NCBI GenBank assembly: GCA_937951345.1
Contig: CALFCF010000080.1
Location: forward strand, 1-41,743
Direction of reading: 5' to 3'
DNA length: 41,743 bases
Source of the DNA: an uncultured Granulosicoccaceae bacterium
GTDB lineage: Bacteria; Pseudomonadota; Gammaproteobacteria; Granulosicoccales; Granulosicoccaceae
The position numbers and the translations under genes were made by a program. The notes under the pieces were generated by a model that was given only the letters and a program-made list of their open reading frames with translations, made no database searches and had not been told where the DNA came from. This document shows positions 7 to 30,545 of the stretch, one piece after another; positions within the stretch are counted from its first letter, which is position 1; the number at the start of each line of letters is the position of its first letter.

Positions 7-255
7 CTAGCCTGCTCTATTCATGAAGGGTTCGCCACCAGAGTCTGGCTACCTAAGCAGCTCGCTCGATTCAGCGAAATTCGTAGAAATCTACGGATTG
101 AGCTCAATCGAGTGAGCTGCGACGGCAGACGGGCACTGGTGGTGAATAGAAAACAGTGTGCGGACACCCACAGCGACGCTAAAACTGCTTTGCTAACTGG
201 AAATGGCTTAGTTTTCATTGTCACTGTTTTCGCCTTCGTGAATAGAGCAGGCTAG
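7..255 (-). repeat. Miniature inverted-repeat element, copy A (MITE-like)
   Basis: The core at 11-251 (241 bp) starts with CCTGCTCTATTCATGAAGG and ends with its inverse (CCTTCGTGAATAGAGCAGG), with one mismatch between the ends. CTAG borders the core on both sides (7-10 and 252-255). This may be a 4-bp target duplication or simply part of the ends. The reverse complement matches the element at 28170-28418 over its full length, with 13 differences by hand count and no gaps. It contains no transposase. A 67-codon frame inside is shared with the other copy, but most of the differences change the amino acid, so it does not look like a conserved protein. The right half of the element orientation contains nested inverted repeats, one arm of which has decayed in this copy. 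I infer a non-autonomous mobile element moved by a transposase encoded elsewhere. Confidence 0.85.
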
Positions 256-27219: not shown

Positions 27220-28107
27220 ATGCGAAGACGGTTTATACAATGTGATGTGTTTTCACCGACACCTTTACGCGGTAATGCGTTGGCGGTAGTTGTTGATGGT
27301 GAGGGTTTAACAACTGAGCAGATGCAGTTGTTTGCCAACTGGACTAACCTTTCTGAAACCACCTTTCTGTTGGAACCTGATGATCCTGAAGCGGATTATA
27401 AAGTTCGTATTTTTACACCGGAAGAAGAAATGCCTTTTGCGGGGCACCCGACGCTCGGTAGTTGCGCAGCCTGGGTCGCGTCCGGTGGAAAGCAAAAGCA
27501 TGCTGATCGCATCGTGCAACAATGCAACATAGGATTGGTTGATGTCATAACATTGGGAAACGAGCTCGCTTTCGTTGCACCTTCCACCCGCGTCACACCA
27601 ATGGTGTCTTCAGTGGAGTCCGAATTACTGCAAGCGATGAGTATCGACACTTCAGTTCTAAGGCGTAGTACGCAGCTTAATAACGGGCCACATTGGCAGG
27701 TGCTTGAACTTGGCAGTGCAGATGATGTGTTGGCTGTGGAACGTGACCGAATAACCTGGCCGGATTTCACCAAACACGGATTTGACGGTCTGGCATTTAT
27801 CGGATTGGTCGGTCGTTATCATCAGAACAGTAACAACAATAAATCCACTGATGCGGATTATGAGGTTCGATTGTTTGCACCGACCAGTGGCATATCAGAA
27901 GATCCGGTAACCGGTTCATTGAACGCAGCGATTGCCTGCTGGTTAGATGCTTTGGATGAATTGCCCGACAGGCTAGTAATGTCTCAGGGAACGGCGCTTG
28001 GTCGACACGGACGATTGTCAATCACCAAAGAACATATCAGCCCCCAACCACGCATCCTGATCGGTGGTGCTACACAGCTACTGGTACAAGGTCATGTTGA
28101 GCTCTAA
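27220..28107 (+). CDS. PhzF-family epimerase/isomerase
   Basis: This 295-residue protein belongs to the PhzF (phenazine biosynthesis-like) family with a DapF-type two-domain fold. The N-terminal pattern QCDVFSPTPLRGNALAVVVD, the catalytic glutamate Glu46 in NLSETTFLL, FTPEEEMPFAGHPTLGSC and the second-half SEDPVTGSLNAAIACWL are diagnostic. Most members act on unknown small molecules, and no phenazine genes are present, so the substrate cannot be named. GGGAAGAGG lies 3 nt before the ATG. It sits with a MITE-like repeat between mnmE and mnmG, genes that are often adjacent elsewhere, suggesting a later insertion into the origin gene cluster. Confidence 0.92.
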   Translation: MRRRFIQCDVFSPTPLRGNALAVVVDGEGLTTEQMQLFANWTNLSETTFLLEPDDPEADYKVRIFTPEEEMPFAGHPTLGSCAAWVASGGKQKHADRIVQQCNIGLVDVITLGNELAFVAPSTRVTPMVSSVESELLQAMSIDTSVLRRSTQLNNGPHWQVLELGSADDVLAVERDRITWPDFTKHGFDGLAFIGLVGRYHQNSNNNKSTDADYEVRLFAPTSGISEDPVTGSLNAAIACWLDALDELPDRLVMSQGTALGRHGRLSITKEHISPQPRILIGGATQLLVQGHVEL

Positions 28108-28169: not shown

Positions 28170-28418
28170 CTAGCCTGCTCTATTCACGAAGGCGAAAACA
28201 GTGACAATGAAAATCAAGCCATTTGCAGTTAGAAAAGCAGTTTTAGCGTCGCTGCTGGTATTCGCACACTGTTTTCTATTCGCCACCAGTGCCCGTCTGC
28301 CGTCGCAGCTCACTCGATTGAGCTCAACCCGTAGATTTCTACGAATTTCGCTCAATCGAGCGACCTGCTTAGGTAGCCAGACTCTGGTGGCGAACCCTTC
28401 GTGAATAGAGCAGGCTAG
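28170..28418 (+). repeat. Miniature inverted-repeat element, copy B (MITE-like)
   Basis: The core at 28174-28414 (241 bp) is bounded by perfect 19-bp inverted repeats, CCTGCTCTATTCACGAAGG and its complement, with CTAG on each side (28170-28173, 28415-28418). It is the same length as copy A at 7-255, inverted relative to it, with 13 base differences. The interior is highly structured. TTCGCCACCAG (28279-28289) pairs perfectly with CTGGTGGCGAA (28384-28394). Inside that, 28305-28323 pairs with 28350-28368 over 19 bp with two mismatches, and innermost CGTAGA-TT-TCTACG (28330-28343). GGCGAAAACAGTG near the left end also pairs with 28267-28284 with a bulge. No transposase is present. The 67-codon frame at 28201-28404 is not convincing as a gene. 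Confidence 0.9.
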
Positions 28419-28524: not shown

Positions 28525-28598
28525 TGTATGTGATTGAACGGTGAACAGGTTCTCGCCGGATGCTGCGTATAGCAGCGCCTGAATGTTAAACTTGAGTG

Positions 28599-30545
28599 AT
28601 GCAATTTCCCGAATCTTTTGATGTCATTGTCGTAGGAGGTGGCCACGCCGGTACTGAGGCGTCGCTGGCGGCTGCGCGTGCGGGTGCGCGCACCTTGTTG
28701 CTGACACATAACATTGAAACCCTCGGGCAGATGAGTTGTAACCCGGCGATAGGGGGTATTGGCAAAGGGCATCTGGTTAAAGAGATCGATGCGCTGGGCG
28801 GCATCATGGGTCGTGCTGCAGATGCTGCCGGTATCCATATCCGCACGCTAAACGCGAGTAAAGGTGCAGCAGTAAGAGCAACACGTGCGCAGTCCGATCG
28901 CAGTCTTTATAAAGCTTTTGTGCGTAAAGCACTGGAGCAGCAACCCGGTTTGACTTTGTTTCAACAGGCTGTTGCAGATTTAACGTTAACAGGCGACCGT
29001 GTTACGGGTGTCGTGACGGAAACCGGCATCAGTTTTAAAGCCGCTGCTGTGGTGCTGACAGCCGGCACCTTCCTGGCTGGAAAAATTCATGTTGGTGAAG
29101 CGACGACTGCAGCAGGTAGGGCAGGTGATCCTGCATCAACACGCCTGGCTGAAAAGCTTCGCGAACTTCCCTTTAATGTGGAGCGTCTTAAAACCGGTAC
29201 ACCACCGCGTATAGACGGACGCACTATCGATTACACATCGTTAGAAGAACAGCCGGGTGATGATCCGCGGCCGGTTTTCTCTTACATGGGTTCGCGTGAA
29301 GATCATCCACAACAAGTGGTTTGTCATATCACCCATACCAATGTCGAAACGCATGAGCTGATCAATAATTCGCTATCGCGTTCACCACTTTTCTCTGGCC
29401 AGATAGAGGGTGTCGGCCCACGCTATTGCCCGTCCATCGAGGACAAAGTCGTGCGCTTTGCTGATAAACAATCGCATCAGATATTTATCGAGCCAGAAGG
29501 ATTAAACACGCCGGAGATTTACCCCAACGGCATCTCAACCAGTCTGCCGTTTGATGTGCAAATTGCACTGGTGCGTTCGATAAAGGGATTTGAATCGGCT
29601 CATATCACGCGTCCCGGCTATGCCATTGAATATGATTTTTTTGACCCGCGTGATCTGCGTGACACGCTTGAGACCAAGTGTATAAACGGATTGTTTTTCG
29701 CTGGACAGATCAATGGAACAACCGGCTATGAAGAAGCAGCAGCGCAAGGACTGCTTGCCGGAGTCAATGCAGCTCGTCAGACCAAAGATCTCGATGGTTG
29801 GTCGCCGCGACGTGATCAGGCTTACATCGGTGTGTTGGTCGATGACCTGATTACCCGTGGCACGCAAGAACCGTATCGCATGTTCACCAGCCGGGCGGAG
29901 TACCGTTTACTCTTGCGTGAAGACAATGCGGATGCTCGACTGACACCGGTAGGGCGAGAGCTCGGACTGGTTGATGACCTTCGTTGGCAGGCCTTTGACG
30001 AGAAACAACGCAGTATCAATAAACTGGAAAGCTACTTACCTTCTTATTGGATACGACCCGGCGATGCGCTGGCATCTAAGCTTGAACAAAACACTGGCTT
30101 TTCGTTATCCCGCGAAAGACGCTACAGCGAGTTGCTGAAAATGCCGGAGATAAACCTCAATCATTTGATTGCGTTAAGTGGTGCAGATGAGTTGACTGGC
30201 TTTCCTGAAGCGGTGATTGAGCAGGTTGAAATACGTTGTAAGTATGCCGGTTATCTTGATCGCCAGCGCGATGATATTGAACGCACAGCCCGCCAACAGG
30301 CCATCAAGCTACCGGCTGATTTTGATTATGCGAAAGTCAGTGGTTTGTCGACTGAAGTACGTCAAACACTTGAAAAGCAACGCCCTGATAACATCGGTCA
30401 GGCGTCGCGCCTGCCGGGTGTTACACCGGCTGCAATTTCGTTGTTACTGGTACAACTAAAAAAAGGCCTTCGTAGTCCGGCCCGGCAAGGCACAAGCACC
30501 CGGGATGATGGTCAATCGACGGATGCCTTAGAAATCAGTGTCTGA
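28599..30545 (+). CDS. mnmG: tRNA uridine-5-carboxymethylaminomethyl modification enzyme MnmG
   Basis: MnmG is the FAD-dependent partner of MnmE in U34 modification of tRNA. The N-terminal Rossmann motif [15 protein letters not shown] is followed by the family signature [26 protein letters not shown], and [21 protein letters not shown] is the second signature near residue 370. The C-terminal helical domain ending in [18 protein letters not shown] is complete, followed by a 26-residue polar tail. At 648 residues it is slightly longer than the usual 630. I chose the ATG at 28599 rather than the GTG just before it. Its last 8 bp overlap the rsmG start. Confidence 0.98.

Follow-up and report, generated by a model that had tools for sequence, protein, structure and literature searches.

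What does a strongly folded repeat between two bacterial genes do, and does it do it for the bacterium or for itself? The question is raised by a stretch of DNA within the window analysed here (41,743 nt from an uncultured Granulosicoccaceae bacterium, contig CALFCF010000080.1), where a sequence-only reading had described nested inverted repeats at 28279-28394 and had proposed a cruciform, a single-strand transposition substrate, a protein-binding hairpin or a small RNA. These stems are present as described. They occupy the right half of an element of 241 bp (28174-28414) that resembles a miniature inverted-repeat transposable element (MITE) and sits between a PhzF-like gene (27220-28107, plus strand) and the next gene, mnmG/gidA (28596-30545, plus strand). 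The strand whose fold is conserved is the minus strand of the window, with its 5′ end at 28414 and its 3′ end at 28174, and the 3′ end of the PhzF-like gene faces the 3′ end of this folded strand. A second copy lies in the window in the opposite orientation (11-251, plus strand; CTAG flanks at 7-10 and 252-255).

The element is bounded by perfect 19-bp terminal inverted repeats, the left one (CCTGCTCTATTCACGAAGG, 28174-28192, plus strand) and the right one (28396-28414, minus strand) pairing as stem P1 when the minus strand folds; the right repeat supplies its 5′ side and the left repeat its 3′ side. The target-site duplication CTAG flanks it on the left (28170-28173) and on the right (28415-28418), and the outermost 23 bp (28170-28192 with 28396-28418) also pair perfectly. 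The nested repeats correspond to a long conserved hairpin, P2 (28279-28395, minus strand; helices 2-4 of the consensus structure), in which 28279-28289 and 28384-28394 form a perfect stem of 11 bp, 28305-28323 and 28350-28368 a stem of 19 bp with two mismatches, and 28330-28343 a short hairpin. On the minus strand P2 carries a 3×3 internal loop UAA/GAC (5′ half at 28369-28371, 3′ half GAC at 28302-28304), which may resemble the UAA/GAN RNA motif, a conserved GG/GA internal loop (GG at 28364-28365; its partner at 28308-28309 is GC in the window copy) and a conserved GA/GA internal loop (GA at 28348-28349, partner GA at 28324-28325).

The predicted structure of the window copy is far above chance: the 241 nt of the minus strand reach −133.4 kcal/mol where 200 dinucleotide shuffles average −70.2 ± 4.2 (z −14.9), and those of the plus strand reach −117.5 kcal/mol (z −11.3 against shuffles). 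A protein-coding role was considered for a 93-aa minus-strand open reading frame and rejected, as it had no Pfam match (E 0.001) and as loop length changes by 1 nt in relatives. We detected no sigma-70-like promoter or terminator at the window copy, so that a transcript would start outside the element or from another type of promoter. No Rfam 15 family matched the window at the gathering threshold, and a permissive search returned two microRNA-precursor families only, at 21.1 bits (threshold 92) and 19.5 bits (threshold 100).

The element is one of many. The terminal repeat has 219 matches at up to 3 mismatches in the genome of the window, while the reversed-pattern control has none, and we put the number of copies at about 100, an uncertain figure as many contigs start or stop within a copy. 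Sixty-six copies could be extracted from this genome with both ends, of which 56 are 236-244 bp long and share a mean pairwise identity of 94.7%. Being short, multicopy, bounded by terminal inverted repeats and devoid of a transposase gene, the element qualifies as a MITE. A covariance model built from nine sequences of four genomes (R1) located its right half in 16 of 48 relatives. A second model, built from 42 sequences (R2), did so in 17 of 48 genomes from the order, among them the window's own. Matches to R2 fell in the genera g1, g2 and g3, with none in g4, g5 and g6; within g1, neither model detected a copy in G002, one of its three genomes. An exact pattern scan of a collection of 84,980 species, which may omit the records of the window's own genome, gave 104 stretches, and the best 80 of these were all from Granulosicoccaceae except for two from Chromatiales and one from a 'bacterium'. 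Related elements are 231-296 bp long, with ends such as CCTGSATTATTCATGAGG and flanks of the YTAR type. For the comparisons below, 73 sense-strand matches, the window copy included, were picked by hand among the 136 matches listed, leaving aside antisense matches of the same hairpins, duplicate loci, truncations at contig ends, the other copy in the window and L165, a weak match. The 62 of these with a terminal mismatch of at most 6 (61 related elements and the window copy) constitute the relatives' set. We found no description of such an element among the open-access papers listed for IS1380 MITEs, Granulosicoccaceae MITEs and structured nonautonomous elements.

What might move the element is suggested by its ends and targets. 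Identical 4-bp flanks were seen at 46 of 64 elements of the window's genome (40.1 when shuffled) and at 44 of 62 in the relatives' set, window copy included (33.5 when shuffled); TTAA, TTAG and CTAA flank pairs occur besides CTAG. Among the 36 flank pairs that are not wholly palindromic, 4 were direct repeats and 1 was inverted, as expected of a target duplication, although this is only a moderate test because most sites are the palindrome CTAG. An insertion sequence in a related genome (L245 in G027) has the ends CCTGATCTATTCATGAG and CCTGGATTATTCATGAG inside CTAG flanks, around a transposase of the IS1380 family (NF033539, E 2.7e-108). Like the element, this insertion sequence follows the pattern CCTG..TTATTCATGAG or CCTG..CTATTCATGAG with CTAG flanks, and its ends match those of the g3 elements, as termini and target of an IS1380-derived MITE should; unlike the element, which lacks a transposase, it carries an open frame of 470 aa and no hairpin, and model R2 gave only weak matches on it, at its two ends (20.8 and 18.3 bits). 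Based on this match of ends and target, we propose that the element is an IS1380-type MITE, probably mobilised, now or in the past, by a transposase of that family. No such transposase was detected in the draft genome of the window (PF13701, no match; 115 contigs, 95.5% complete), and among 20 relatives searched it was found only in G027 and G029. An IS701-type transposase (PF13546) was considered as the mobiliser and set aside, since it was absent from the window's genome and from G001, G002, G003, G006 and G031, with matches only in G029. Single-strand elements of the IS200/IS605 type, such as REPIN and PATE, have no terminal inverted repeats and no target duplication; the present element has terminal inverted repeats and a 4-bp flanking duplication, and does not belong with them.

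Derivative copies were also observed. Minimal forms consist of the two terminal repeats only (L034 and L094, 43 bp; L013 and L065, 37 bp; and L170 in G001). Other loci are truncated on one side: in L152, L154, L157, L158 and L159 all that remains is 32-76 bp at the folded strand's 5′ end, and in L160 and L162 it is the opposite, 3′ end. Near lone termini in G001 and G003 no transposase was recognised when the ORF translations of seven loci were read by eye. The deletion forms (37, 43, 120 and 123 bp) are too few to serve as proof of immobility. Five copies in the window's genome (L036, L049, L081, L115 and L155) are 385 bp long; in all of them a different MITE, roughly 140 bp in length and with ends like GGGAACCTCTGATTTATTA, sits in one and the same YTAR site of the left arm. 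It occurs there in both orientations, which makes the site a repeated landing place. We considered these composites as proof that the left arm is dispensable, and rejected this because the nested MITE occurs in two orientations and may have been inserted independently.

Covariation, which the sequence-only reading had suggested looking for, is present between lineages. We aligned, by sequence alone, 55 distinct elements of 230-245 bp (the window copy and 54 related elements, two of these from G001 and the remainder from genus g3, the longer g2 elements having fallen out). The consensus structure has 68 pairs, which comprise P1 (the two ends), P2 and three further pairs; 95.0% of cells are paired, and 41 of the 68 pairs show compensatory double changes. 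Double-change cells number 329, against 110.5 when shuffled (0/500) and 29-54 when the partner is slid, where shuffle counts are not probabilities because the sequences are related. One column pair, 61-103, is unpaired in 20 of the 55 elements. The two mismatches of the 19-bp stem had been taken for decay from an ancestral perfect stem, which need not be so: 28361/28312 is a G.U pair on the minus strand, and 28364/28309 falls within a conserved internal loop, where 52 of 55 elements have the G in column 54 and likewise 52 of 55 have it in column 110, on the other side. The left arm (28193-28276) behaves differently. It is folded in the window copy, where the pairing reported for the left end is perfect (28194-28203 with 28267-28276), but this pairing is not general, as neither sequence nor structure of the arm is conserved in relatives and their left arms are at chance level (mean z −0.05 against mononucleotide shuffles, n = 62 including the window copy; 3 below −2). 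The conserved core is P1 together with P2.

The two strands of the element are not equivalent. In an alignment of nine sequences from three genera, the minus strand folds with −65.0 kcal/mol and 48 pairs, and the plus strand with −32.2 kcal/mol and 34 pairs. The minus strand also folds better in all 56 copies of 236-244 bp among the 66 extracted from the window's genome (mean −123.1 versus −98.2). Within the relatives' set it does so in 60 of 62 elements; L188, where the strands are equal, and L241, where the other strand is slightly better, depart from this. The advantage of the minus strand stems from G.U pairs formed where the plus strand has A.C. In the structure derived from the minus strand, G.U cells number 289 and A.C cells 48; in the one derived from the plus strand the excess is smaller (133 versus 88; 31 versus 14 by pair). 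Since each such structure favours its own strand, we relied on the 63 pairs predicted on both, where G.U still exceeds A.C (132 versus 47; 31 versus 13 by pair, p 0.0096). The asymmetry indicates that a single strand is selected, rather than a cruciform, which uses both strands, so that of the explanations first offered the cruciform is disfavoured. That the structure is informative holds, and a single-strand substrate or RNA is the correct class of explanation.

When is this selection exerted? We placed changes on a tree of 110 elements. Internal branches carry about 36 G.U and 9 A.C changes and 32 double changes, whereas the terminal branches of copies in the window's genome carry 9 and 12, with 1 double change (Fisher p 0.004); relatives' terminal branches, where older divergence is also contained, fall in between (57 and 28, with 13 double changes). 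Singletons among the copies of the window's genome that alter a Watson-Crick pair likewise divide into 14 G.U and 14 A.C. Thus the random loss of pairing that had been set against covariation as the contrary outcome does occur, among resident copies, and it is between lineages that compensatory change keeps the pairing. The G.U bias on internal branches and its absence from the window genome's own terminal ones point to selection that acts on lineages as they spread and leaves resident copies alone. Residents would be protected if the host used the fold at each locus, and lineages if the fold served spreading. The data fit the latter; the fold is apparently preserved as an aid to the spread of the element and not for use by the bacterium.

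The neighbouring genes give another indication of which strand matters. In 66 of 80 cases the neighbour that adjoins the folded strand's 3′ end points towards the element (28/34 in the window's genome, 38/46 in relatives; p 3e-9), while the gene at that strand's 5′ end is unbiased (35/80), and between co-directional genes the folded strand is antisense in 38 cases and sense in 7. The count covers 34 of 66 elements of the window's genome and 46 of 109 related entries (the 109 containing repeat fetches of one locus), namely distinct elements of at least 200 bp with both neighbours callable within 600 bp by mechanical ORF calls. With the ORF minimum at 150 and 200 aa it becomes 17/20 and 16/19 in the window's genome and 35/44 and 29/36 in relatives, and at 80 aa 29/39 and 26/35. 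Gene ends of any kind within 400 bp are distributed 36:16 between the 3′ and 5′ sides in relatives (p 0.008) and 30:22 in the window's genome (p 0.33). The stop codon of a neighbour lies exactly at the element's edge 24 times on the 3′ side and 7 times on the 5′ side (p 0.003; 43 elements of the window's genome and 44 related), and these stop codons fall within the TAR of the YTAR target. Replication direction was considered as the cause of the bias and rejected: the folded strand has a mild bias in GC skew (positive in 20/61 related elements, p 0.0099, and in 9/26 of the window's genome, p 0.17), yet elements of either skew sign show a similar gene effect (15/19 and 29/35 in relatives, 6/9 and 14/17 in the window's genome). 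The simplest reading would be that harm results where a transcript carries the folded strand ahead of a gene, although the bias could also come from an insertion preference.

Taking these observations together, we lean slightly towards the explanation that P1 and P2 are the core of an IS1380-mobilised MITE, in which a strand-specific single-stranded fold, most likely that of a minus-strand transcript, is needed for spread. An IS1380-family transposase (piggyBac-like, of the DDE type) would mobilise, or would have mobilised, the MITE in trans through its 19-bp ends and YTAR targets. P2 and the pairing of the two ends would constitute the single-stranded fold, and this fold would be required for a copy to spread, so that copies keeping it found new lineages; we infer that it acts at a step of the spreading process. 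Once inserted, a copy would escape selection and decay. The folded strand would be unwelcome in cis upstream of a gene, so that most survivors would have its 3′ end abutting that of the neighbouring gene, and such junctions would often lie exactly at a stop codon supplied by the YTAR target. We consider it rather doubtful that, beyond this, the spread of a MITE by a DDE transposase depends on a folded RNA transcribed from one element strand; in that case the RNA may be a cofactor, may tie the ends together or may be a reverse-transcribed intermediate.

The selected molecule could instead be single-stranded DNA, one strand folding at excision or replication to serve as transposition substrate or to join the ends of a very short element. 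We regard this as possible, if on the unlikely side. G.T pairs are tolerated in DNA too, and with DNA energy parameters the same strand is favoured in 61 of 62 elements of the relatives' set, so folding energies do not settle the choice between RNA and DNA. A signal on spreading lineages is what a substrate role predicts; the mild skew bias in relatives also agrees with it, and the 43-bp forms L034 and L094 have their ends joined at TTCGCC, a sequence that borders the lost interior on either side, as could arise by slippage across a folded strand. However, the orientation bias goes with the adjacent gene and is much alike for either sign of skew, which points to transcription rather than replication, and the IS1380-type ends with their 4-bp duplication suggest not a single-strand mechanism but a DDE-type one, which we take to be characteristic of the family. 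Because orientation is linked to genes, RNA seems the likelier molecule.

Template switching can copy one arm of a palindrome onto the other, and the element might therefore be an ordinary MITE with a DNA palindrome or cruciform, whose compensatory changes reflect such quasi-palindrome correction and no selection of a strand. This is quite improbable, as it predicts equal numbers of G.U and A.C, contrary to both the internal branches and the shared pairs. Correction would also be expected to erase internal loops, whereas several unpaired bases of the P2 loops (UAA/GAC, GG/GA and GA/GA) are invariant or nearly so, columns 53, 70 and 115 being the same in 55 of 55 elements. Such bases would not be expected in a decaying or self-correcting palindrome, although overall the unpaired columns do not exceed the paired ones in conservation (mean entropy 0.525 versus 0.554). 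In favour of a plain palindrome, stable long stem-loops, also as transcripts, are usual in bacterial MITEs according to the available part of a review (PMC2229807); this also removes the ground for the earlier view that the element holds more structure than a typical MITE needs. Least probable of all, indeed very unlikely, is a small RNA or cis-acting RNA element used by the host (in mRNA stability or termination) and selected at each locus: orientation to neighbouring genes is non-random, and ERIC and NEMIS RNAs have been proposed to affect adjacent mRNAs (PMC2229807, available part), but resident copies show no excess of structure-preserving change in singletons or on terminal branches, their singletons are about as frequent at paired sites (76 in 192) as at unpaired ones (17 in 49), and no Rfam family matches.

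The preferred reading, a strand-specific fold serving the spread of an IS1380-type MITE, can be set beside known systems. ERIC/IRU, Correia/NEMIS and RUP are, like the element, short, bounded by terminal inverted repeats and able to form a long stem-loop, which in those MITEs is found in transcripts, and the effect of ERIC on mRNA is orientation-dependent (PMC2229807, available part). They differ in having 5′ TA termini (Table 1 of that review), where the element has 4-bp YTAR flanks and IS1380-type ends; judged by these flanks and the lack of an Rfam match, a comparison made without direct sequence alignment, the element belongs to none of the three. The word 'compensatory' does not appear in the available part of that review (PMC2229807), whereas compensatory changes were counted here across two genera in the 55-element alignment and three in the nine-sequence set. 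Coxiella QMITE1/CbsR13 is likewise a MITE of a gammaproteobacterium; its RNA is predicted to be very stable (−128.5 kcal/mol), and transcript reads map to it. Its duplications are WW, SS or GAAG, and we saw no evidence of strand selection in the part of the report available (PMC5896051). The piggyBac superfamily shares a 4-bp duplication of the TTAA type, mostly TTAA with CTAA and TTAG variants, and IS1380 serves as its outgroup (PMC10813416, available part). It is, however, eukaryotic, and no structured internal core was seen in that part of the source (PMC10813416). What is new here is strand-specific selection of the fold of a MITE, acting on spreading lineages and not on resident copies.

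A fold that serves the element is otherwise hard to tell from one that serves the host, and it is the many copies, both in the window's genome and in relatives, that allow the two to be separated. Independently of this, the orientation rule offers another way of telling which strand matters in the cell. Conservation confined to lineages and to one strand makes a direct transposition test of the fold possible. If spread does depend on RNA, the element would be an RNA-assisted DNA transposon, selected only while mobile.
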